From Vulcanimicrobiota bacterium (GTDB lineage Bacteria > Vulcanimicrobiota > Vulcanimicrobiia > Vulcanimicrobiales > Vulcanimicrobiaceae): a stretch of DNA of 64,000 bases. The DNA lies in assembly GCA_027459645.1 (NCBI GenBank), contig DAIDHQ010000040.1, positions 1 to 64,000 on the forward strand, in the 5' to 3' direction. This document shows positions 15,782 through 29,801 of this stretch, in pieces. Position numbers and translations under genes: made by a program. The notes under the pieces were generated by a model. That model was not told the DNA's origin. It did no database searches and saw nothing but the letters and a program-made list of their open reading frames with translations. Within the stretch, counting starts at the first letter, position 1. The number at the start of each line of letters is the position of its first letter.

Positions 15782-17416
15782 GTGGAAGCTACACAAAACG
15801 ACGGATTCGCCTCGCTCGGGCTCGATAACGCGCTCGTCGGCGCGCTCAACACCTTGGGCTACGAAGAGCCGACCGGGATCCAGCGGGAGGCGATTCCAGC
15901 GCTGCTTTCGGGACGCGACGTCTTAGGGCAGGCCGCCACCGGCACCGGAAAGACCGCTGCTTTCGCGCTTCCGTTGCTACAGCGGATCGGCCGCCACGAA
16001 GGCGATCGTCCCATCCGCGGTTTGATTTTGGTGCCCACGCGCGAACTGGCCATGCAGGTCGCCGAAGCGGTACACCGTTACGGCAAACCCTTCGAAACGC
16101 GCGTGCTTCCCATCTTCGGCGGCCAATCGATCGGGTTGCAGCTTCGCAGCCTTCGCCGCGGCGCAGACGTCGTCGTGGCGACGCCGGGACGCGCGCTCGA
16201 CTTCATCAATCGCGGCGCGCTCGATCTCTCCGGCGTGGAGTTTCTCGTGCTCGATGAAGCGGACGAGATGCTCGACATGGGATTCGCCGACGAACTCGAT
16301 GCGATTCTGGCAGCGCTACCCGAGCATCGCCAAACGGCGCTCTTTTCGGCGACGATGGCTCCGCGCATTCGCGCTCTCACGAAAAAGCATCTGCACGATC
16401 CGGTCCAAGTCACCATTCCGACCGAACGTACGAAGCCGGGGACCGCACCGCGCATCCGCGAGGTTTCGTATATCGTTGCCCGGCCGCAAAAGATCGCCGC
16501 GCTCGCACGCGTGCTCGATATCGAGGATCCCGCATCGGCCATCGTCTTCTGCCGTACGCGCACCGAAGTCGACGAGCTCGCCGACATGCTCGTCGCACGC
16601 GGGTACGAAGCCGAACCGCTTCACGGCGGCCTTTCGCAAGAACAACGCGATCGCGTGCTGCGTCGCTTTCGCGAAAGCAAGGTGACGATTCTCGTCGCGA
16701 CCGACGTTGCCGCGCGCGGACTCGACATCGAACATGTTTCGCACGTCGTCAATTACGACGTGCCCTCGTCGCCCGACGTCTACGTGCACCGCATCGGGCG
16801 CACGGGACGCGCGGGCCGCGAAGGCGTTGCCGTGACCTTTGCCGAGGCGCGCGAGCAGCGGCTGTTGCGCAATATCGAACACCACACGAAGCGCAAGATT
16901 CCAGTCGAATCGGTTCCGACCGTGCACGACCTGCGCGCGAAGCGGCTCGAAGCCGTGCGCTCGTCGATCGAAGCGGCGCTCGCCGACGGAGGGCTCGAGC
17001 GCTATCGCGCCATCGTCGATTCGCTCGCGACCGAATACGACGTTTACGATCTTGCCGCCGCCGCCGCAAAGCTGGCGGATCAAACGCGGGACGGCGCGCC
17101 CGAAGACGAGGTCGATATCCCGGCGGTCGCGCAGCCGCGCGAGAGTCGCGCTCCGAAACGCGAACGGACGATCGGCGGGGACGTCTCTCGTATCTACGTC
17201 GGCTTAGGGCGGCGCGATAATCTTCGTCCGGCCGATCTCGTCGGTGCGATTGCCAACGAAGCATCGCTCAATTCCCGCGATATCGGCGCGATCGATATCG
17301 CCGACCGATTTTCGCTCATCGAAGTCCCAAGCGCCCAAGTCGAGCGCATCGTCAAAGCCTTGCGTCACACGGAGATTCGCGGAAAGAAACTCGGCGCGCG
17401 CCGCGACCGCAAGTAA
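15782..17416 (+). CDS. deaD: DEAD-box ATP-dependent RNA helicase with DbpA-type RNA-binding domain
   Basis: The protein unwinds RNA in ribosome assembly, decay or cold adaptation. The frame is open from a TTG at 15752, but the GTG at 15782 gives a conventional N-terminus (about 544 residues). From that start, ATGTGKT is at 52-58 and DEAD at 158-161; SAT and HRIGRTGRAGR motifs follow. The C-terminus (about 460-530) carries a DbpA/CsdA-like RNA-binding fold beginning at RIYVGLGRRDNL. The gene ends 52 bp inside the 3' end of the convergent sortilin-type gene. Confidence 0.92.
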   Translation: MEATQNDGFASLGLDNALVGALNTLGYEEPTGIQREAIPALLSGRDVLGQAATGTGKTAAFALPLLQRIGRHEGDRPIRGLILVPTRELAMQVAEAVHRYGKPFETRVLPIFGGQSIGLQLRSLRRGADVVVATPGRALDFINRGALDLSGVEFLVLDEADEMLDMGFADELDAILAALPEHRQTALFSATMAPRIRALTKKHLHDPVQVTIPTERTKPGTAPRIREVSYIVARPQKIAALARVLDIEDPASAIVFCRTRTEVDELADMLVARGYEAEPLHGGLSQEQRDRVLRRFRESKVTILVATDVAARGLDIEHVSHVVNYDVPSSPDVYVHRIGRTGRAGREGVAVTFAEAREQRLLRNIEHHTKRKIPVESVPTVHDLRAKRLEAVRSSIEAALADGGLERYRAIVDSLATEYDVYDLAAAAAKLADQTRDGAPEDEVDIPAVAQPRESRAPKRERTIGGDVSRIYVGLGRRDNLRPADLVGAIANEASLNSRDIGAIDIADRFSLIEVPSAQVERIVKALRHTEIRGKKLGARRDRK

Positions 17417-20400
17417 CCGGCGCTTGCGTTGCGCGTGACCGCGTGATGCCGTTGCCTCGGACTCGCACTCCGCCCAGGGGTCGTGCTAGGTACGGGCGCA
17501 AGACGGTCGCGGCGCAGCAGCACGTTGAGCGCGTGCAACCGCGTCGTGAAGAGGGGTTCGTCCGCGGCAACCGCCTTTTGCAGCTCGGCATGCAACTCGT
17601 CCGCGAGAGCGGTTTGGGCCGCCGTCGGTGCGTAGTCGCTTCCGCCGATACCGCCGGCGTCACCGGCAATGCGCTCGTAAAGCCGGCTCGGCAGGCGCAG
17701 CGTGTCTTCCCACGTCTGGGCGCTCGGAATATAGAGCGCGTCGAGCGCCTTCCCGACCGAACGCTGCATCGCCGCAATCGCGTGCCGCGTATCGACGGAC
17801 CGCGCGAGCTTGGCTTTAGCGACAAGCGCGCGATCGAGCGTGCGAAGCGAATCGATCTGCTTTCCCGTTTTGGTGAAGTCCGCCCGAAGCTGCATCATGA
17901 GTGCGAACGCTTGGCGCATCTGCGCGAGCGTCGCAGGCGATCGCGGATCGGCGAGCACGTGCAACGTTGCGTCCTGCTGCGTGCCACTCGCGATCAGACG
18001 AACGGTGTAGGTTCCGGGCAGCGCTTGCGGGCCTATGAAGCCGCCCTGCTGCGCGTGATAGTTCGAAACCAGCGGGACCGTTTGATACATCAGGTCCCAC
18101 CACACGCGATTAACGCCGATCAGCGGATGCTTCACGGTAATCGTTCGGATCACCGTGGGGCCATCGAGAATCTGCACCTTTGCGGGGTGTTTCTTCGACG
18201 GGAGCGTACCGAGATAAAACGTGATATCGGCGTCGCCCGGCGGGTTCTCGCCGGCCCCGTCTCCCGTCGCCCACGTTCCCCGGCTGGAATTCCATCGGTA
18301 CGCATCGCGGGGCGTAAAGAGATGGGCGCGCTCCGACGCCGTCTGCGCGGTCCACTGCTGCAACGCGCTGATATCGTCGAGAATCCATACGCCTCGGCCA
18401 TGCGTCGCGACGACCAAATCGTCGAAGCGCGGTTGGACCACGAAATCATAGATGGGCACGTGTGCAAGGTTGTTGCGCAGCGAACCCCAATGCGCGCCGT
18501 CGTCGAGCGAATACCACAACCCGGTCTCAGTGCCGGCGTACAATAAGCCTTGGCGTTTCGGATCTTCGCGCAGCATCCGCGCGTAGCTATTTTTCGGAAG
18601 ATTCGATGTAATCGACGTCCAATGCGCGCCGAAGTCGCGCGTCACGTAGAGATAAGGACGCCGGTCGCCGAGCTTGTGGTTTTCGGCAACGAGATACGCG
18701 GTACCGTCGCTAAAGCGCGAGGGATCGATGTTCTCGATGCGCGCCCAATGCGGCAAACCGGGGACTGCCGCCGTCAGGTTCGTCCAATGGGCCCCCTCAT
18801 CGCGCGTGAGCCACACCAGACCGTCGTCCGTGCCGACCCAAATCTCGCCTTTGGCGGACGGCGATTCCGCTATGCATGCAATCGTGTCATAGACTTCCGT
18901 GCCGGCGTTGTCGACGGTGATGGGACGCCCCGACGCAATCTGTTTGCTCTTATCGTTGCGCGTGAGGTCCGGACTCACCGCGCGCCACGTGCTTCCACCG
19001 TCGTCCGTGCGCAGAAGCTCTTGGGAGCCGAAATACAGCGAGTCGGGTTCCAGTGGTGAAACGGCGACGGGTGAAACCCAATTCGCACGATATTTGTACG
19101 CATCCGCGCCCGTGCCGGAGTACGTGTCGGGCCACGGGCTGATCAAACGCGTCTGCATCGACGTGCGGTCGTAACGTATCACCGCTTCCTGATAGCCGGT
19201 GCCGTAGATTATATTCTGGTTCGCCGGTGAAAAGACGATCCAGCCGCTCTCGCCCGCATTCGGCGAAAACCACTGGTCGGGCGTAATCGCCCCGCTGAAG
19301 CTCATGCTCGGGCCGCACGCCGCGCCGGGATCCTGAAACTCGCCGCAAATCGTGTACGGAATTTTGTCGTCCACCGAAATATGGTACGGCTGCGACACGA
19401 TCAACTGCGGGTCGCGCCACGTCTTGCCTCCGTCGAGGGAGAGCCGTACGCCCGCATCGGCGCCGATGATCGCGCGCTTGCCGCCGACGGGATCGATCCA
19501 CATCTGATGGTGATCGTAGCCGTTCGTATGCATCGGTTTAATCGTCTTGCCGCCGTTATACGATTCGGACGGAAAGATCGACATGAAGTAGACGTGCTGC
19601 GGATTCTTCGGATCCACGGTGAATTGCGAGAAATAGTAGGGGCGCTGATCGAGTATGTGCTTGTCGCTCATCAGGCGCCAGTGCACGCCGCCGTCGCTAC
19701 TGCTCCAAAATACGCCATGCTTCGATTCGATTACGGCATAGACGCGACGCGCGTCGCTCGGCGCAAATCGCACGCCGATGCGCCCCATGAGTCCGCGAGG
19801 AAGACCGTTGCCGCGTAACCGGGTCCAGTGCGCGCCCGAATCGCGCGACACGAAGATGCCGTCGGCCGGACCGCCGCTCGTGAGCATCCACGGGCGTCGC
19901 TGCACGGTCCACGTCCCCGCGATGAGATACGACGGATTTGCCGGCGAGATCGCGATCGTCGATGCGCCGGTCTGCGGTCCCGTATAGAGCGAGCGCTCCC
20001 AGTGCTTACCGCCATCGCGCGTAACGTAGACGCCGCGATGCGGTCCCGGCGCGAACGGATCGCCGACGGCGGCCACGTAAACGACGTTGGGATCGCGCGG
20101 ATCGATCGCGATTTGCGCGATCTGTGCCGTATCGTCCAGCCCGACGTGCTTCCACGTCGTGCCGCCGTCGTCCGAGCGCCAGATACCGTCGCCGAAAGCA
20201 ATATCGTTGCGAATATTCGGCTCGCCGGTGCCTACGTACACGATCTTCGGATTCGACGGAGCCACGGCGATTGCGCCGATTGAGGTCACCGGCTCGCGGT
20301 CGAACACCGGCTGCCAGTTCACGCCTCCGTCGGTCGTACGCCACAATCCGCCGAGACCGCCGGCAAAGTACGTCTCGGAGTTTCCGGGAACGCCCGCCAC

Positions 20401-20532
20401 CGCATCGATCCGCCCGGTCGTCGGCCCCACATTGCGAAAATCCAGGTGAGCGAACGGCGACGGCACGGCCGGCAATGCGGCCGCCGTCCCGGCTATTAAA
20501 AAGGCGATACTCAGGGCGACAGATCGAAGCAC
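17365..20532 (-). CDS. Secreted sortilin/VPS10-type BNR-repeat beta-propeller protein, copy 1
   Basis: The 1055-residue protein (GTG start) has a signal peptide (about 1-22). A large beta-propeller region follows with roughly ten Asp-box/BNR motifs of the form S-x-D-x-G-x-x-W (for example TTDGGVNW, SDDGGTTW, TRDGGKHW). The C-terminal 250 residues are alpha/beta with a helical end. Such proteins are often auto-annotated as glycosyl hydrolases, but the sialidase catalytic residues are not evident; secreted binding or peptidase-associated roles are equally possible. Two paralogues lie at 34333-40677. This copy is the most diverged and ends in a basic tail overlapping the helicase gene. Confidence 0.85.
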   Translation of the reverse strand: MLRSVALSIAFLIAGTAAALPAVPSPFAHLDFRNVGPTTGRIDAVAGVPGNSETYFAGGLGGLWRTTDGGVNWQPVFDREPVTSIGAIAVAPSNPKIVYVGTGEPNIRNDIAFGDGIWRSDDGGTTWKHVGLDDTAQIAQIAIDPRDPNVVYVAAVGDPFAPGPHRGVYVTRDGGKHWERSLYTGPQTGASTIAISPANPSYLIAGTWTVQRRPWMLTSGGPADGIFVSRDSGAHWTRLRGNGLPRGLMGRIGVRFAPSDARRVYAVIESKHGVFWSSSDGGVHWRLMSDKHILDQRPYYFSQFTVDPKNPQHVYFMSIFPSESYNGGKTIKPMHTNGYDHHQMWIDPVGGKRAIIGADAGVRLSLDGGKTWRDPQLIVSQPYHISVDDKIPYTICGEFQDPGAACGPSMSFSGAITPDQWFSPNAGESGWIVFSPANQNIIYGTGYQEAVIRYDRTSMQTRLISPWPDTYSGTGADAYKYRANWVSPVAVSPLEPDSLYFGSQELLRTDDGGSTWRAVSPDLTRNDKSKQIASGRPITVDNAGTEVYDTIACIAESPSAKGEIWVGTDDGLVWLTRDEGAHWTNLTAAVPGLPHWARIENIDPSRFSDGTAYLVAENHKLGDRRPYLYVTRDFGAHWTSITSNLPKNSYARMLREDPKRQGLLYAGTETGLWYSLDDGAHWGSLRNNLAHVPIYDFVVQPRFDDLVVATHGRGVWILDDISALQQWTAQTASERAHLFTPRDAYRWNSSRGTWATGDGAGENPPGDADITFYLGTLPSKKHPAKVQILDGPTVIRTITVKHPLIGVNRVWWDLMYQTVPLVSNYHAQQGGFIGPQALPGTYTVRLIASGTQQDATLHVLADPRSPATLAQMRQAFALMMQLRADFTKTGKQIDSLRTLDRALVAKAKLARSVDTRHAIAAMQRSVGKALDALYIPSAQTWEDTLRLPSRLYERIAGDAGGIGGSDYAPTAAQTALADELHAELQKAVAADEPLFTTRLHALNVLLRRDRLAPVPSTTPGRSASPRQRHHAVTRNASAGYLRSRRAPSFFPRISV

Positions 20533-21237: not shown

Positions 21238-21252
21238 ACTGGGGTGAGAGTC

Positions 21253-22008
21253 ATGAAGAACCCGGAACTATTACACGCAAAGCAATTCGCAAAGCGCGCC
21301 GGCGTCACGGTACGCACCTTACACGTGTACGACGAGGCCGGCTTGCTGTCGCCAAAAACGCGCTCCGATGCCGGCTATCGTCTCTACGGCGAAGAGGAAC
21401 TCGTACGTTTGGAGCAGATCCTCGCGCTGCGGTTTCTGGGGCTCGGACTCGATCGGATCAAATCACTTCTTGATGGCCCCCCGCAAACGCTCGTTCAAGC
21501 CCTTTCCGTTCAACGCGCGGTCATCGTCGAAGAGCAGCGCCGGCTCAACCTGGTTCTGCAAGCGATCGACGAGGCGCGCACCGTGCTCGAGGAAGGCGAG
21601 CCGAGCGAGCGATGGCGCGCGGTCCAACACGTTATCGAGGCGTTCAAAATGAAAAATGACTTTAGCTGGACCGAAAATTACTACTCCGGAGAAGGGCTGC
21701 AAAAACTCGCGAAGATGCGAGCCGAGACGCCCCCCGAAGTGATCGAAAAAGGCGAGCGCGATTGGGCCGAACTGATTGCCGAGGTCGAAGCGGCGTGCAA
21801 GACGGTCGATCCTTCGAGCGATGCTGCGAAGGCGCTCGCGCGCCGTTGGCGCAATCTCATCCACCAGTTCACCAAAGGCGATCCGGATATATCGCAAGGT
21901 CTCAACAACCTGTGGACCGACCGGTCCCACTGGCCGAGCGATTTCAAAAAGCCCTACAGCGACGAGGCCGAAGCGTTTATTCGCAAAGCACAAAGCCATC
22001 TGGACTAA
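21253..22008 (+). CDS. MerR-family regulator with TipAS-type effector domain
   Basis: The 251-residue regulator has an N-terminal MerR winged helix (about 6-75: AKRAGVTVRTLHVYDEAGLL, then GYRLYGEEEL), a coiled-coil (about 80-120) and a C-terminal helical domain. The C-terminal domain matches TipAS, the multidrug/thiostrepton-binding module. In TipAL-type proteins, ligand binding switches on promoters with long spacers. I chose the ATG at 21253 because GGGGTGAG sits just upstream; the GTG at 21244 is an alternative. Its targets are not obvious, but the next operon begins 90 bp downstream. Confidence 0.88.
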   Translation: MKNPELLHAKQFAKRAGVTVRTLHVYDEAGLLSPKTRSDAGYRLYGEEELVRLEQILALRFLGLGLDRIKSLLDGPPQTLVQALSVQRAVIVEEQRRLNLVLQAIDEARTVLEEGEPSERWRAVQHVIEAFKMKNDFSWTENYYSGEGLQKLAKMRAETPPEVIEKGERDWAELIAEVEAACKTVDPSSDAAKALARRWRNLIHQFTKGDPDISQGLNNLWTDRSHWPSDFKKPYSDEAEAFIRKAQSHLD

Positions 22009-22018
22009 ACGGCGCGCT

Positions 22019-22034
22019 TGTGAGGTGGCTCACA
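22019..22034. promoter_or_regulatory. Perfect CRP/FNR-type palindrome TGTGA-N6-TCACA
   Basis: The 16-bp sequence TGTGAGGTGGCTCACA is an exact match to the CRP half-sites of E. coli with the canonical 6-bp spacer. It lies 11 bp after the MerR stop and 63 bp before the start of the gene at 22098, which is followed by a Crp-superfamily regulator gene. Position fits an activator or autoregulatory site for that two-gene unit. Whether the local Crp-like protein uses this consensus is unknown. Confidence 0.6.
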
Positions 22035-22059
22035 GACGCCTCGGCGGTCGAAGGCTACC

Positions 22060-22081
22060 ATAGCGTGCATCACTACGCTAT
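22060..22081. repeat. Inverted repeat ATAGCGT-N8-ACGCTAT in a promoter region
   Basis: Two perfect 7-bp arms flank an 8-bp centre, 16 bp before the ATG at 22098. It may be an operator or a hairpin in the leader. The half-site resembles the TAGCGT seen in the MerR-type promoter at 21232, so the upstream MerR regulator is one candidate binder. Too short for firm assignment. Confidence 0.35.
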
Positions 22082-22097
22082 TGGAGTACCCTCATAG

Positions 22098-22976
22098 ATG
22101 AACCACCTTCACAAGCGCCCGCAACTGCGCGGCCCGATAGCTGCAGCCGCTGCAGCCGCGTTGACGGCATTAGCCGCGCCAGCATTTGCCGCAATGATGG
22201 CGCCGCCGTCGATCTCCATCGTTTCGCCGTCGATGGGGAACACCATCACCGGCGACACCATCCCGGTAAACGTTGCGATCAAGAATTTCAAGCTCGAGTG
22301 TGCCAACGCCGGAAAAACGAACGTGCCGATGGGCGAAGGGCACATCCACGCGATGGTCGACGGAATGAACATGGCGCACCTGACGACCGTCGCATGTTCG
22401 GACCGCTTTAGCATCTCCGGACAAGGACTCAAACCCGGAAAGCATATGCTCGCCGTCGTTCTAGCAACCGATGCGCATGCAATCAGCAGTCTTCCCGCGA
22501 TGACGTCGTTTACGTATGAACCTCGGCGCGCACGGCCGCTGCCGCGCCCGATATCGGGTACGCCGGCGCTCGCCATTCTGTCGCCGAAGAATGGGGCGAC
22601 CGTCGGCAAGAAGTTCGACTTGGTGTTGAGCGTTCGCAATTTCGGGCTTTCGTGCGATCTCGAAGGCAAGCCCGACGTCCGCGGGTGGGGACACCTCCAC
22701 GTCATGGTGCGACAAGCGGGCGAGACGAGCGCCGCGCCGTCGACGCCTGCGGCAGCGATGATGAAAAACGCCCATGGAATGTCTATGGCTCAGTTGCAGC
22801 CGATGCTCACCATGGCGATGCCGGGTATGATCGGCATGCCGTGCACGAAGACGGTCCCGGTCGACCTTTCGACCTGGCACGGCGGAAAAGCGAACATCGT
22901 CGTTCAGCTCGCAAACAACGATCACATGCCGACGATGGGCGTTTCGCCGGCGACGCTCTCCGTACGTCTCCGCTAG
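22098..22976 (+). CDS. Secreted two-domain Met/His-rich protein
   Basis: The 292-residue protein has a signal peptide (cleavage near AFAAM, about 31) and two repeats of about 105 and 140 residues. Each starts with an I-x-SP-x-G-x-T/A strand motif, includes a Cys, then GHIH or GHLH plus a second Cys (about 69/100 and 194/255). The GH-x-H motif recalls DUF4399-like domains. Repeat 2 carries a Met/His-rich insertion (MMKNAHGMSM, MAMPGMIGM). Metal binding, perhaps copper, with an intrarepeat disulfide is plausible but unproven. The Crp-fusion gene follows 9 bp downstream, and a CRP-type site lies upstream. Confidence 0.7.
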   Translation: MNHLHKRPQLRGPIAAAAAAALTALAAPAFAAMMAPPSISIVSPSMGNTITGDTIPVNVAIKNFKLECANAGKTNVPMGEGHIHAMVDGMNMAHLTTVACSDRFSISGQGLKPGKHMLAVVLATDAHAISSLPAMTSFTYEPRRARPLPRPISGTPALAILSPKNGATVGKKFDLVLSVRNFGLSCDLEGKPDVRGWGHLHVMVRQAGETSAAPSTPAAAMMKNAHGMSMAQLQPMLTMAMPGMIGMPCTKTVPVDLSTWHGGKANIVVQLANNDHMPTMGVSPATLSVRLR

Positions 22977-22985
22977 CGGCCGCGC

Positions 22986-23960
22986 GTGACGAAGGCTCGC
23001 GTAACGCTCTACGGACGCGCCGACTGCCGCTTCACCGAACTCGCGCGACGCCGAATCGCCGGCGTCGCGCGAGAATTCCACGATGTCGAGGTACGCATTT
23101 GCGATCGGTCCGAAGCTGCATCCGACGGCGTTCACGTGCTGGCAACACCGACGCTCGTCTTGCCCGACGGCCGCAGGCTGACCGGCACGCCGAGCGCCGA
23201 CCGTTTGCGAGGGGTGTTCTCGGAACTGCTCGGGAAAGTCGCTCCCGTGCCAAACAAGGTGTGGTACCTGCAACACAGCCGTGTTTTTCACGGGGTACCT
23301 CTCGACGAAATCGAACGGTACGCTCATCTCTTTCACGAATACGACGTCGCTCCGAATGAAATCGTTTTCTCGGAAGGCGACCTTGGCGACGCGATCTATC
23401 TGTTAAAGACGGGACACGTGCGCATCTACCGGCTCACCGACGACGGCAAGCAACTGACCCTTGCGATACTCGGCCCCGGCGCCGTCTTCGGCGAGCTCGC
23501 GCTCTTCCAAGAGACGCGCCGGCAAACGTTCGCCGAAGCATTGGACGCCTCACACATTTGCGCGGCGTCGGTAGACGACTTCACGCGGCTGATGGGGCAC
23601 AAGCCGCAGCTAACGATGATGGTAGCCGGTGAAATCGCGCGGCGACGCAGCGAAATGGAGACGCGCATCGCGGGACTGGCCTACGGATCGGTACGAGCGA
23701 AGCTCGTTCACATGCTGCGACACCTCGCGCGCGAGCACGGCGAAACGCTTCACGACGGACGGATTCGGATTGCGATCCGTCTTTCGCATCAAGAACTCGC
23801 GCAACTCGTCGGCATCTCACGCGAAAGCTGCACGATCGAACTCGGCAGACTTCAGAAAGCGGGCGTCGTTACGTTCGACAATGACCGGTTCATCGTCGTA
23901 GAAGCGGCGCGCCTGGAACCCGGGATCCTCGATCGCGTTTTCGGACGCATCCTCGGCTAG
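22986..23960 (+). CDS. Thioredoxin-fold / Crp-Fnr fusion transcription regulator
   Basis: This 324-residue protein (GTG start) begins with an 80-residue thioredoxin/glutaredoxin-like fold: VTLYGRADC with a lone Cys14 (C-R-F-T in place of CxxC) and a cis-Pro segment ATPTLVL at 53-59. A cyclic-nucleotide-binding beta-roll follows (about 95-205; FGELALF) and then a Crp winged helix (about 225-310; LSHQELAQLVGISRESCTIELGRL). The usual family length is about 220-240 residues, so the first domain is an addition. It could let a thiol state tune DNA binding. It is convergent with the CDF exporter gene, two bases apart. Confidence 0.85.
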   Translation: MTKARVTLYGRADCRFTELARRRIAGVAREFHDVEVRICDRSEAASDGVHVLATPTLVLPDGRRLTGTPSADRLRGVFSELLGKVAPVPNKVWYLQHSRVFHGVPLDEIERYAHLFHEYDVAPNEIVFSEGDLGDAIYLLKTGHVRIYRLTDDGKQLTLAILGPGAVFGELALFQETRRQTFAEALDASHICAASVDDFTRLMGHKPQLTMMVAGEIARRRSEMETRIAGLAYGSVRAKLVHMLRHLAREHGETLHDGRIRIAIRLSHQELAQLVGISRESCTIELGRLQKAGVVTFDNDRFIVVEAARLEPGILDRVFGRILG

Positions 23961-23962
23961 GC

Positions 23963-24847
23963 TCAACAGGCCTCGCCGCAGTCCTCGCATTCGACCTCTA
24001 CGGTCGCGTGGGTGATGTGAAAGCGGTCGTGCAAGAGTTTTTTTACGTCGGAAACGATGCGTTGCGATTCCACCAGCGCCGTGCTCGGCACGCGAACGTG
24101 CAGGCTTGCGGCGATGGTCCGGTCTCCCACCGACCACACGTGAACGTCGTGAACGGCGTCGACCGACGGTACCGACAGCAGCGCCTGGTTGACCGAACCC
24201 ATGCTGATGCCTTCGGGAACGCCTTCCATCAAAACGTGCAGCGAACGACGAATGAGATTCCATGCCGAATAGGAGACCGCGATCGCCGCCAGCATCGACG
24301 CGATCGGGTCGGCCTGCACGAAACCCGTGAACCGAACGACGAGTGCTGCGACGATAACGGCCACGGAGATGGCCGCGTCTCCCATAACGTGAAGCAGCAC
24401 GGCGCGGAGGTTGAGCGAGGCCGATGCCGAGCGCGCCAGCACGAACGCAAGCGAACCGTTCGCGACGATTGCTATTAACGCAATGCCGATCATCAACATC
24501 GTGTTCGGCGTAGCCGGCGAACGAAGGCGTTGGACGGCTTCGAAGATCAAGAACAACACGATCGCAAAGAGTACGGCCGCATTCGTGAGCGCCGCGAGCA
24601 CCGTCGCACGTCCGTAACCGAAGGTGCGGCGCTCGTCCGCCTGCCACATCGCGATTTGCGCGGCCCATAGTCCGAGGGCGGCCGCAGCGACGTCGGTCAG
24701 CATGTGCGCCGCATCGGCAAGCAAGGCCAAACTGCCCGAAAGCATTCCGCCGATCGCTTCCAACGCGAAGAGCGCAATCGTCGTTGCGACCGCGATCCGC
24801 AGCTTTCCGAGATCGTCACCGTGCTCGTGCGTGTGTGCACTGGCCAT
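23963..24847 (-). CDS. Cation diffusion facilitator (Co/Ni/Zn exporter, DmeF/CzcD-like)
   Basis: The 294-residue antiporter has six hydrophobic helices and a C-terminal cytoplasmic domain. Metal-site pairs are visible as H48-x3-D52 in TM2 and H153-x3-D157 in TM5. The N-terminus has a short His cluster (HTHEH, 5-9) and the C-terminus a Cys pair (CEDC). It is the last gene of an operon headed by an RcnR-type repressor and including an HX4DH-type exporter, so cobalt or nickel is the likely substrate. Its start abuts the stop of the small membrane protein gene. Confidence 0.9.
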   Translation of the reverse strand: MASAHTHEHGDDLGKLRIAVATTIALFALEAIGGMLSGSLALLADAAHMLTDVAAAALGLWAAQIAMWQADERRTFGYGRATVLAALTNAAVLFAIVLFLIFEAVQRLRSPATPNTMLMIGIALIAIVANGSLAFVLARSASASLNLRAVLLHVMGDAAISVAVIVAALVVRFTGFVQADPIASMLAAIAVSYSAWNLIRRSLHVLMEGVPEGISMGSVNQALLSVPSVDAVHDVHVWSVGDRTIAASLHVRVPSTALVESQRIVSDVKKLLHDRFHITHATVEVECEDCGEAC

Positions 24848-25069
24848 TTACGTCTCCCCGAAGCGGCCGCGCCACTTCCACAACGCGACGACGCCCCATA
24901 CCGCCTCGACGATCCCGAACGGCCACGTTCCCGCGAGCCAGCCATATGCGGAACTCGCAAAACACGCGAGTGCGAAGAGCAGCGTAAATACGGAACGCCG
25001 CGTTTCGAGTGCGTAGAAGAGCATCATCAGCGTCACCGAGGCGGCGCCGAAGAGCGTGAGCACGTTCAT
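24848..25069 (-). CDS. Small membrane protein in the Co/Ni operon
   Basis: The 73-residue product (ATG at 25069, overlapping the upstream TGA as ATGA) has two or three hydrophobic helices, with YGWLAGTWPFGIVEAVWGVV near the C-terminus. Frames extending further upstream run through the neighbouring gene and are discarded. Similar 70-80-residue proteins occur beside metal exporters, but I cannot name the family. Translational coupling on both sides suggests a role with the exporters, perhaps as an accessory subunit. Confidence 0.7.
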   Translation of the reverse strand: MNVLTLFGAASVTLMMLFYALETRRSVFTLLFALACFASSAYGWLAGTWPFGIVEAVWGVVALWKWRGRFGET

Positions 25070-25737
25070 GCGATGGGCCAAATCATAAACACGACGCCGA
25101 TCAGCGCGATGACGGCGCCGCTCAAGACCTCGCCGTATCTCTCGAGAGGGCCAAGCGACAGGCGGCGCAACGCGCGGTCGGACGACACGCAGAGCACGAC
25201 GTACGTCGCGATCGTGCTGAGCGCGAAGAAGACCGACATCACGACGAGCAGCGCGAAGCCAAATTTCGCGGCGGCAAAAAACGCCGGAATTCCTTCGATC
25301 ATCGGCGACGAGCCGAGGATGAGCAAGAGCGCCATGCGCGAGTTCGGCCGGTCGTTGTCGTGATCGTAGGCGTGCTCGTGGTCGTGGTCGTAGTCGTGGT
25401 CGTGATGATGGTGATGGCCGCCGCTCGAAATCTCGCGGTACGACGAGATCGCAATCCATGCGCCGAAGCCCACGAGTGCAAGGCTCGAAAGCGTCGACAC
25501 CAGGTGGCCGAAGCGAACGGCGACCGCGAGGCCGGCGACCCAGACGATCGCGCCGATAGCAAGCGTCGATATCGTGTGACCGAGACCCGCGCCGAACGCC
25601 GCGCGGGCGGTCTGCCGTCGCGACCAGTTTTTCTGGCGCGCCATCAACGCGATCGGCGCCCAGTGATCGGGCACGAGCGTGTGTAAAATGCCGACGGCGA
25701 TAACCGCTCCGATGAGCAGCAGAGCTTGTTGCGTCAT
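25066..25737 (-). CDS. Ni/Co exporter of the NicO/RcnA type with His-rich loop
   Basis: The 223-residue membrane protein starts at ATG 25737. HTLVPDH at residues 19-25 is the HX4DH signature of nickel/cobalt transporters. A His/Asp-rich loop follows (HHHHHDHDYDHDHEH and more, about 108-130), as in RcnA, where such a loop supports efflux. Six helices are predicted. It lies 11 bp downstream of an RcnR-type repressor gene with a full Ni/Co ligand set, which favours efflux over uptake. Distant similarity to UreH/NreB-type proteins does not change that reading. Confidence 0.85.
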   Translation of the reverse strand: MTQQALLLIGAVIAVGILHTLVPDHWAPIALMARQKNWSRRQTARAAFGAGLGHTISTLAIGAIVWVAGLAVAVRFGHLVSTLSSLALVGFGAWIAISSYREISSGGHHHHHDHDYDHDHEHAYDHDNDRPNSRMALLLILGSSPMIEGIPAFFAAAKFGFALLVVMSVFFALSTIATYVVLCVSSDRALRRLSLGPLERYGEVLSGAVIALIGVVFMIWPIA

Positions 25738-25748
25738 AGCTCGGAATA

Positions 25749-26024
25749 CTACTTCAGGTACGCGCGAACGATATCGATGAGATCGCCGGCAAACGCCGTG
25801 CCGTCCTTCGAGAAGCCCGAGGGCGCAAGAAGATGCTCGTGGATGTGGCCTTCGAGAACTTCCGACATCAGGCCGTTCATCGCGCCGCGCGCCGCCGCGA
25901 TGCGCTGTAACACTTCGCCGCACTCAGCGCCCGCTTCCAATGCGCGTTCGATCGCTTCCACCTGTCCTTGAATACGGCGAACGCGGTTCACCAGCTTCGT
26001 CTTATTTCGCATCGTGTGACTCAC
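25749..26024 (-). CDS. rcnR: RcnR-type Ni/Co-responsive repressor (DUF156/CsoR family)
   Basis: The 91-residue all-helical repressor has the RcnR ligand set at the same positions as E. coli RcnR: His3, Cys35, His60 and His64. CsoR copper sensors and FrmR formaldehyde sensors differ at these places, so nickel or cobalt sensing is well supported. It heads a minus-strand operon with an HX4DH exporter, a small membrane protein and a CDF exporter. Metal binding should release DNA and open the operon. A 6-7-6 palindrome 27 bp upstream of its start is the likely operator. Confidence 0.9.
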   Translation of the reverse strand: MSHTMRNKTKLVNRVRRIQGQVEAIERALEAGAECGEVLQRIAAARGAMNGLMSEVLEGHIHEHLLAPSGFSKDGTAFAGDLIDIVRAYLK

Positions 26025-26050
26025 CGTGGTGCCCTTCCTTACGCGACGCT

Positions 26051-26069
26051 TATACCCTACCCAGGTATA
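26051..26069. promoter_or_regulatory. Candidate RcnR operator
   Basis: TATACC-CTACCCA-GGTATA is a perfect 6-bp inverted repeat around a C-rich centre, a form typical of DUF156-family operators. It lies 27 bp upstream of the repressor start in the intergenic region shared with the divergent OsmC gene. TATA-rich arms would overlap the -10 region on the minus strand, so binding would block polymerase. Confidence 0.65.
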
Positions 26070-26160
26070 GTGTTCGCGTCACCGGCATCGGCACGCAAAG
26101 ATTGCCGCTTCCCCTCGTCGCATCCTTAACGGGCTGCTTCTCGCTCTTAAGGATCGAAAC

Positions 26161-26595
26161 ATGACGTCCCTAACCCTCGAATCCACCGGCGATTACCGAT
26201 TCCACGTTCGCGTCGAAGGCGATGCGCCGCATGAGTTTGTTACCGGCGAAGGACCACCGCTCGGCCTTCCCGGGGCGCTCGAGCCGCAAGAGCTGCTCGG
26301 TGCGGCGATCGGCACGTGCTTGGCGTCGAGTCTGCTCTTTTGCGCGCAGAAAGCACACGTCACGATCCAATCGCTCTCCGCTCGCATAGACGTCGAAACG
26401 GTCCGTAACGCCAAAGGGCGTCTGAGGATCGGCTCGATCGACGTCGCCTTAGATGCCGGCGTACCCGAGGAGCAGGGCGAGCGGTTCGCCCGCTGTCGGG
26501 AAATTTTTGAAGACTACTGCACCGTCACGGAGAGCATCCGGGCGGGTATTCCCGTCAAAGTCGAGTTCGCATCGCGGCCAACGGAGGTCCGCTAG
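26161..26595 (+). CDS. OsmC-family peroxide-detoxifying protein
   Basis: The 144-residue protein has the OsmC/Ohr fold. The two redox cysteines are Cys53 (GTCLASS, start of the long helix) and Cys120 (DYCTVTESI). Cys61 and Cys112 are additional. Family members reduce organic hydroperoxides with lipoyl or dithiol donors. The Ohr/OsmC subgroup cannot be settled. It is divergent from the RcnR-type operon and shares its intergenic region, so metal stress might affect it, though this is conjecture. Confidence 0.85.
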   Translation: MTSLTLESTGDYRFHVRVEGDAPHEFVTGEGPPLGLPGALEPQELLGAAIGTCLASSLLFCAQKAHVTIQSLSARIDVETVRNAKGRLRIGSIDVALDAGVPEEQGERFARCREIFEDYCTVTESIRAGIPVKVEFASRPTEVR

Positions 26596-28238: not shown

Positions 28239-28602
28239 ATGCCGGATCTCTCCATGTTCGCCAACACCGAAGACACCCGCGATTATCCCGCAGGCCACGT
28301 CTTTTTCTCGGCCGGGGATCGCGGCGACGCCATGTACGTCGTACTGATCGGCGAGGTCGAGATTCTCGTGCACGATCGTGCGGTCGAAACGGTCAAGGCG
28401 GGAAGCATTTTCGGCGAGATGGCGTTGATCGATAACCGCGAACGCAGCGCGACGGCACGCGCAAAAACCGCCGTTAAAGCAGCGACGATCGATCAAGGCC
28501 AGTTTCTCTATCTGCTACGGACGCATCCCTCGTTTTCGATCGAGGTCATGAACGTCATGGCCGACCGCCGTGCGTCTGCTCAACCAGGCGTTGCTGCGCT
28601 AA
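28239..28602 (+). pseudogene. Small cyclic-nucleotide-binding-domain protein with a 1-base frameshift near its end
   Basis: Residues 1-110 form a cNMP-binding beta-roll: YPAGHVFFSAGDRGDAMYVV, then GSIFGEMALIDNRERSATA, with no DNA-binding domain. Stand-alone proteins of this type usually end in ADRLRxxN plus a few residues. Here, after MADR at about 28568, the current frame runs on antisense through the flagellin gene to 28886. Removing one base (G at about 28570) gives ADRLRLLNQALLR and a TAA at 28600-28602. The restored stop falls just before the convergent flagellin stop. Either a real 1-bp insertion or an assembly error is possible; the domain itself is intact. Confidence 0.75.
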
Positions 28603-28604
28603 AG

Positions 28605-29801
28605 CTACGCGAAAAGCCCCAAGACCGATTGCGCGAGCGTGTTGTTGTGCGCGATAACGGCAGTGTTGAGCTGCGAGCGGAGCAGATCGAGCGTCGAAGT
28701 CGTCGTCGCCTGACCGTAGTTGAGATCGGCCAGATTGGATTGCGCCGCGGTGACGTTAAGCTGGTTGACGTCGTTGGATGCAACCTGGTTTTGCAGCGCG
28801 GCTTGCTGCGCGCCGAGCGTCGCCTGGCTCGAGTTCAACGTTACGATCGCGTTGTCGAGCTGACCGATGGCGTTGGTCGACGTTAAACTCGATGATAGGT
28901 TGACGTTCGAAATCGCCAGCTGCGAGCTGCTCACGCCCGGAAGCACCAGGTTCGTCGTATTGCCTTCGGCCGCGCCGCTCTGCACGGTAAGTGCATTGTT
29001 CTGCGTATTTGCCGGGACGTTTTGCGCGATTTGGATCCTCGCGGTCTTACCCACGTCGCTCAGATTGAAGTTTCCGAGCGCGATATTGACGTTTTCGAAT
29101 CCGCCGATCGTGCCGCCAGAAGCGACGAGCCCCGATTGCACTTGCCCGCCGGTGGCACTGTCGACGACCGTCGCTTGCGCCGCGGCGACGCCATTGTTGT
29201 TGACGATCGAGATCGCGATCGTGGAGTTCGTCGTCCCCGAGCCTCCGAAACCTTGCGCGGGTCCGGTCGCGTTTTGAAAGCTTGGCCCCGACGCGGCGAC
29301 CTGTGCGACCACGTTGCCGCTTCCAGTCAAGAGATCGTTATTCGTCACCGTCGCGGCCGCCGGCGTTCCCGCTTGCGCGCCCGCGAAAGAACCGTTGAGT
29401 AATTGAACGCCGTTGAAGTTCACGCTCTGCGCCGTCGTGTTAAATTGCTGCACGAGCGCGTTTGCTTGCGCTTGCAGCGCGGCACGGTCGGTTGGGCTCA
29501 GAAAATCGTTGACGCCCGTAACGGCTAAGTTACGCAACTGCGAAGCGATGCCGGAGAGTTGCTGCAACGCGCCCGAAGCAACGTTCGTCGCGTTAAACGC
29601 GTTCTGCACGTTCTGCGTCGCAGCATTGAGCGCGCTCGCCGCAACGGCAAGGGACGTTGCAATCGCATATGCCGACGGGTCGACCGACGGACTCGTCAGC
29701 CGCTTCCCCGACGCTTCCTGCGCGACGAGCGTCGATAGGGTGTTCTGAAGGCTATAGAGCTGGTCGAGCGGCTGCGCGTTCGAAGGGGTAATCGAGGCCA
29801 T
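28605..29801 (-). CDS. Flagellin (orphan)
   Basis: The 398-residue protein (ATG at 29801; AGGGGA just upstream) has flagellin N-terminal D0/D1 helices, with LSTLVAQEASGKRLTSPSVD, NAFNATNVASGALQQLSG and FNGVQLLNG. A variable Gly/Ala/Asn/Thr-rich middle (about 130-310) follows, then a C-terminal D1/D0 helix region ending QSVLGLFA. A TATAAT lies only 9 bp before the start codon. No other flagellar gene is present in the window. It may encode a filament subunit or a flagellin-like surface protein. Confidence 0.85.
   Translation of the reverse strand: MASITPSNAQPLDQLYSLQNTLSTLVAQEASGKRLTSPSVDPSAYAIATSLAVAASALNAATQNVQNAFNATNVASGALQQLSGIASQLRNLAVTGVNDFLSPTDRAALQAQANALVQQFNTTAQSVNFNGVQLLNGSFAGAQAGTPAAATVTNNDLLTGSGNVVAQVAASGPSFQNATGPAQGFGGSGTTNSTIAISIVNNNGVAAAQATVVDSATGGQVQSGLVASGGTIGGFENVNIALGNFNLSDVGKTARIQIAQNVPANTQNNALTVQSGAAEGNTTNLVLPGVSSSQLAISNVNLSSSLTSTNAIGQLDNAIVTLNSSQATLGAQQAALQNQVASNDVNQLNVTAAQSNLADLNYGQATTTSTLDLLRSQLNTAVIAHNNTLAQSVLGLFA

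Follow-up and report, generated by a model that had tools for sequence, protein, structure and literature searches.

A thioredoxin-CRP fusion regulator in Candidatus Eremiobacterota that may switch on cell-envelope genes upon thiol chemistry

Crp-family proteins are textbook allosteric activators, and the variants known so far differ mostly in the ligand pocket. A 64,000-nucleotide stretch of bacterial DNA (the window) encodes a protein in which a Crp-type module is preceded by an additional N-terminal domain. The locus raises two questions: is this domain a thioredoxin fold that belongs to the regulator, and could it bring thiol chemistry to bear on transcription? The features of the gene are as follows.

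22986..23960, + strand: thioredoxin-CRP fusion regulator, 324 aa, GTG start, single continuous open reading frame
22986..23231, + strand: N-terminal thioredoxin-fold domain, residues 1-82 (AlphaFold2, Foldseek and profile matches)
23025..23027, + strand: codon of Cys14 at the start of helix 1, the active-site position, in a CxF[S/T] motif; invariant in 15/15
23148..23150, + strand: codon of Pro55, the cis-Pro position before strand 3, in 15/15; the position is assigned by sequence and fold
23346..23594, + strand: beta-roll of the cNMP-binding type, residues 121-203 (Pfam PF00027)
23700..23918, + strand: winged helix-turn-helix of the Crp type, residues 239-311 (Pfam PF13545)
23829..23831, + strand: Cys282 codon, within the recognition helix (Val183 in E. 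coli CRP); Cys in 15/15 fused and 0/21 unfused proteins

An earlier note on this DNA had proposed a thioredoxin-type fold at residues 1-80 with a complete roll and winged helix behind it, and both parts were borne out. Pfam matched cNMP_binding at residues 121-203 (E = 1.9e-22) and HTH_Crp_2 at residues 239-311 (E = 6e-12), both above the cut-off, which is the Crp/Fnr order of a cNMP-binding-type roll followed by a Crp winged helix. Thioredoxin matches to residues 1-82 were sub-threshold in Pfam and NCBIfam. A profile of ten orthologues matched 2nbs, a designed thioredoxin-like protein, at E = 4e-5, and the archaeal mini-thioredoxins 1nho and 1fo5 at E ~1.5e-4. The structure prediction that the note had called for gave an ordered rather than a disordered N-terminus: with a ten-sequence alignment, AlphaFold2 folded residues 1-92 as b-a-b-(a)-b-b-a at a mean pLDDT of 88.5 (~93 in the core), with strand 4-10, helix 15-28, strand 34-40, strands 56-58 and 64-66, and helix 71-81. 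When this model was searched with Foldseek, the named PDB matches were nearly all thioredoxins, designed thioredoxin-like proteins and fold-switched KaiB (TM ~0.6-0.77). The predicted domain therefore has the thioredoxin fold itself, a cysteine at the start of helix 1 and a proline before strand 3. A full-length AlphaFold2 model was discarded (pLDDT 58.8), and because of its poor quality no model places Cys14 near Cys282.

Two genes misread as one can be ruled out, since the domain lies in frame with the CRP part in 15/15 genomes; orthologues do not start at about residue 90, and in 14 further species one reading frame includes the domain as well. The fusion was found in 15 of the 149 genomes of the phylum, Candidatus Eremiobacterota, each a separate species; 11 belong to the family of the window and four to a second family of the same order. 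A marginal sixteenth match (E = 5e-4), inside a 2617-aa frame in genome G145, is outside this count. Full-length relatives named in the databases came either from Candidatus Eremiobacterota or from an unclassified bacterial MAG, and all related genomes with named records are MAGs. The fused proteins form one clade (SH-aLRT 88). Of 11 pairs compared, several had a dS close to or over 1; dN/dS across the pairs was 0.12-0.39 for the N-terminal domain versus 0.02-0.13 for the rest of the protein, and this purifying selection on the N-terminal domain argues that the fusion is more than chance.

We did not observe the fusion elsewhere. When 84,980 species were scanned by pattern, no other fusion came up beyond the phylum, and none was found on plasmids, where matches were at the CRP level only (those listed 24-32% identical); distant fusions could have escaped both searches. 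In the viral library, the matches were ordinary thioredoxins and glutaredoxins. The open-licence papers searched, on the fusion, its families and CRP mechanism, held no description of a thioredoxin-CRP regulator. The earlier remark, that a named regulator of this domain order is not known, agrees with the libraries and papers searched.

We then compared the cysteines. The earlier note had seen a single Cys14 where CxxC is expected and had asked about its conservation; Cys14 and Pro55 are each present in 15/15 fused proteins. The single conserved cysteine stands, but the monothiol motif CxF[S/T] is shared by the whole family (as CRFT, CDFT, CAFS, CPFS or CRFS) and is not a degeneracy of one protein. 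Neither the CxxC of dithiol thioredoxins and glutaredoxins nor the CGFS of monothiol glutaredoxins occurs in any of the 15. Only three alignment columns are cysteine throughout, Cys14, Cys192 and Cys282, and the N-terminal cysteine cluster that holds the Fe-S centre of FNR is missing. Cys192, in the roll, was rejected as a fusion-specific cysteine, as it is also found in 21/21 unfused relatives. In contrast, the position of Cys282 is Val or Thr in all 21 of these relatives and Val183 in E. coli CRP, where it sits in the recognition helix between the DNA-reading residues Glu181 and Arg185. The thioredoxin domain and the recognition-helix cysteine therefore go together. Both cysteines arose on one branch and have been retained since, so that their association counts as one event and not as repeated co-evolution. 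Being specific to the fused proteins, Cys282 is what speaks most strongly for a thiol-based switch; it strengthens the earlier suggestion of thiol or redox sensing, which is still a reading of the sequence.

Upstream of the regulator lie a predicted promoter and a companion gene.

22019..22034 (core 22020-22033), no strand: predicted operator TGTGAGGTGGCTCACA, a CRP-type GTRA-N6-TYAC palindrome, with equivalent sites in 15/15
22056..22061, + strand: predicted -10 element TACCAT, a consensus match 22 nt past the palindrome
22098..22976, + strand: secreted two-repeat His/Met-rich protein with weak Big_7/DUF4399 similarity, first gene of the operon as predicted from sequence

A predicted palindromic site of the CRP type, as expected of a Crp/Fnr regulator, lies upstream of the fusion gene or its operon in 15/15 genomes. 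These palindromes scored 10-12 of 12 against GTRAGCNNGCTYAC, a score that on its own flatters the sites because the consensus was drawn from those same sites; in Markov-null or shuffled regions, a score of 11 was reached in 0.2% and a score of 12 never. Independent support for the operator is the fixed -10 spacing together with the sites at unlinked genes. A TANNNT follows the palindrome after 22 or 23 nt in 15/15 fusion genomes. With TANNNT taken as -12 to -7, the palindrome is centred at -41.5 for the 22-nt spacing and one base further for 23 nt; in the window, the start site read from the consensus is 22068 and the centre is at -41.5. Class II activator sites centre at -41.5 (PMC5957442) and overlap the -35 region, and the spacing in 15/15 is consistent with class II geometry, with start sites inferred from the consensus. 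In pattern-based regulon scans of the genomes, the combination of palindrome and -10 element seen in the window matched nowhere else in the 3.14-Mb genome. Operator sites without a clear gene behind them were also present; random sequence of like composition gives ~0.07 sites per Mb.

The recognition residues Arg180 and Glu181 are kept in the fused proteins, and Arg185 is lost. In E. coli CRP, Arg185 and Glu181 read half-site position 4 (PMC11253593), and the loss of Arg185 fits the relaxation of this position from a strict G to A or G. The operator pattern was found in 15/15 fusion genomes versus 1/15 control genomes picked without the fusion. Specificity of the operator for the fusion was nevertheless ruled out, as the pattern was found in 17/20 genomes with CRP relatives lacking the thioredoxin domain; about half of the NKVWYL-type relatives have a site of the same spacing before their own gene. 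Since genomes of unfused relatives share it, the operator is a property of the wider CRP subfamily and was not brought by the fusion. Fusion genomes had no close unfused copy among the matches listed, and the fused protein therefore seems to stand in for it.

Next, we examined what the operator might control. The His/Met-rich gene stops 9 nt before the regulator start and lies directly upstream of the regulator, in the same orientation, in 8/15 fusion genomes. Its product was found in 13/15 fusion genomes versus 1/134 others, where it is fragmented (Fisher p ~9e-16, with genomes treated regardless of relatedness), and the gene has an operator site of its own where it is unlinked (G062 and G063) or divergent (G061). 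G051 and G058 are without this protein; there, the site lies ahead of genes that encode a secreted Cys protein, SCO1/SenC and a TlpA-like protein, with the regulator gene following these. In G061 and G124, the gene for a small DUF1440/YqhR-like membrane protein has operator sites; in G051 and G058 the site is weaker and this gene comes second behind it. Sites near the regulator of G124 precede genes for a radical SAM protein, a STAS protein and a PagL-type lipid A deacylase, possibly a membrane-lipid regulon. The predicted targets vary by species and include no classical oxidative-stress genes; the theme common to these candidates is the cell envelope.

Several further observations concern these loci and the window. 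The G124 sites cluster beside the regulator (L061 9644-13000), and the radical SAM protein there has an HMPTM-type zinc ribbon. Two short fragments of the His/Met protein just after the regulator in G064 (L042 2707-2877) look like a decayed copy, and in G063 (L040 235-643) a divergent ArsR-family gene may also be controlled from the same palindrome. In the window, a MerR-family regulator with a TipAS antibiotic-recognition domain (21244-22008) ends just before the operator. The region 23963-26595 holds genes for a CDF cation efflux protein (- strand), a membrane ORF resembling HupE/nickel transporters (Pfam: no match), a CsoR/RcnR-type repressor (- strand) and an OsmC protein (+ strand). A second cNMP-binding protein of 215 aa, in which Pfam finds no HTH, is encoded at 28239-28886, and a 1055-aa ORF on the - strand (17365-20532) looks sortilin/BNR-repeat-like by eye.

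The reading that we favour, with about an even chance of being right, is that the protein is a class II self-activator of the Crp family whose built-in monothiol thioredoxin-fold domain gates DNA binding through the thiol state of Cys14. A regulator dimer would bind the palindrome and activate from -41.5. Cys14 would exist as a free thiol, as a mixed disulfide with a small thiol or a partner protein, or in a disulfide with Cys282, and its state would decide DNA binding by the recognition helix, with Cys282 as the lever. The output would be a small envelope regulon plus the regulator's own gene; in most species the regulon would contain the secreted His/Met protein, in two it would contain SCO1 and TlpA, and in others small membrane proteins. 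The operator would already have been in use by a thioredoxin-free CRP, which the fusion replaced in these species. In this most likely account, the putative activator role rests on promoter geometry and the putative thiol gate on two cysteines. Its most specific form, in which the monothiol domain forms or resolves a disulfide with the protein's own Cys282 so that thiol state directly sets promoter binding, is more doubtful and is offered only tentatively.

The N-terminal fold might instead be a docking or dimerisation module like KaiB, with Cys14 structural or in contact with a partner and no thiol switch. The best fold matches include KaiB structures, the second active-site cysteine is absent, and the rate of evolution in the N-terminal domain is several times that of the CRP part; however, Cys14 falls precisely where thioredoxins have their active site, neither it nor the Pro loop varies, and Cys282 occurs in fused proteins only. 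We consider such a module unlikely. A sensory role for a metal or cofactor, in which Cys14 binds Cu(I) or an Fe-S cluster shared by two monothiol domains, seems less probable again. Monothiol glutaredoxins bind shared [2Fe-2S] clusters (PMC5053157), but the CGFS motif is absent here. SCO1 and TlpA serve copper-site assembly in Bradyrhizobium (PMC6696091), and both are among the predicted targets, as is the secreted His/Met-rich protein. The CDF efflux and CsoR/RcnR genes adjoin the regulator in the window, yet these metal genes are not conserved neighbours and no operator precedes them within the window.

A plain CRP driven by a cyclic nucleotide, with the thioredoxin domain as an accessory, appears the least probable of all. 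The genome encodes four class III cyclase-type domains, and the equivalents of E. coli CRP Glu72, Arg82 and Arg123 are kept in 15/15 fused proteins. However, the Ser83 equivalent is Gln in 11/15 and Ser in 4/15, that of Thr127 is Met, Ile, Val or Ala, and that of Ser128 is Glu in 15/15, so that the cAMP pocket of these six residues is incomplete. The cAMP-independent DdrI has a similar pocket, with Glu and Arg kept and base contacts lost (PMC11253593). Loss of the purine contacts makes cyclic-nucleotide control, which the earlier note had envisaged, doubtful: the retained Glu72 and Arg82 speak for it, and the altered base contacts weaken it. Control by cAMP in the E. coli style is unlikely from these residues, and a nucleotide other than cAMP is possible.

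If the thiol-gated reading is true, a thioredoxin head with a matching recognition-helix cysteine would be a new route for thiol chemistry into the Crp machinery. The analysis also gives a CRP subfamily in a little-studied phylum its first candidate regulon. Because operator, promoter geometry and targets are predicted, the fusion is testable in a heterologous host even if the source bacteria are uncultured.

Lastly, we compared the fusion with known systems. E. coli CRP shares the roll and winged helix and, going by what is predicted for the fusion, a palindromic site of the GTGA-N6-TCAC type, the Arg180/Glu181 readout and the class II position, but it is without the N-terminal thioredoxin domain; the fusion, for its part, has lost the purine contacts and Arg185 and has Cys in place of Val183. 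Like the fusion, DdrI of Deinococcus radiodurans retains the Glu and Arg of the phosphate pocket without the adenine contacts, and keeps the R-E-T motif with the last recognition residues changed; the available part of the source (PMC11253593) mentions no thioredoxin-type N-terminal extension for DdrI. FNR is likewise a Crp/Fnr member and senses redox state, through an Fe-S cluster (PMC12531629), whereas the fusion lacks the N-terminal cysteine cluster and conserves only the three cysteines named above. The archaeal mini-thioredoxins (1nho and 1fo5; TIGR00411) have a small thioredoxin fold and are the best natural profile match (~28% identity over 75 columns), but 1fo5 carries the CxxC motif CPHC, unlike the CxF[S/T] that is here joined to a transcription factor. 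The unfused NKVWYL-type CRPs of Eremiobacterota have the same CRP core and linker (~33-40% identical) but no thioredoxin domain, and Val or Thr at the Cys282 position. Overall, the fusion fits the Crp/Fnr family, and a tested feature in each case sets it apart from cAMP-type CRP, FNR, dithiol thioredoxin and CGFS glutaredoxin.
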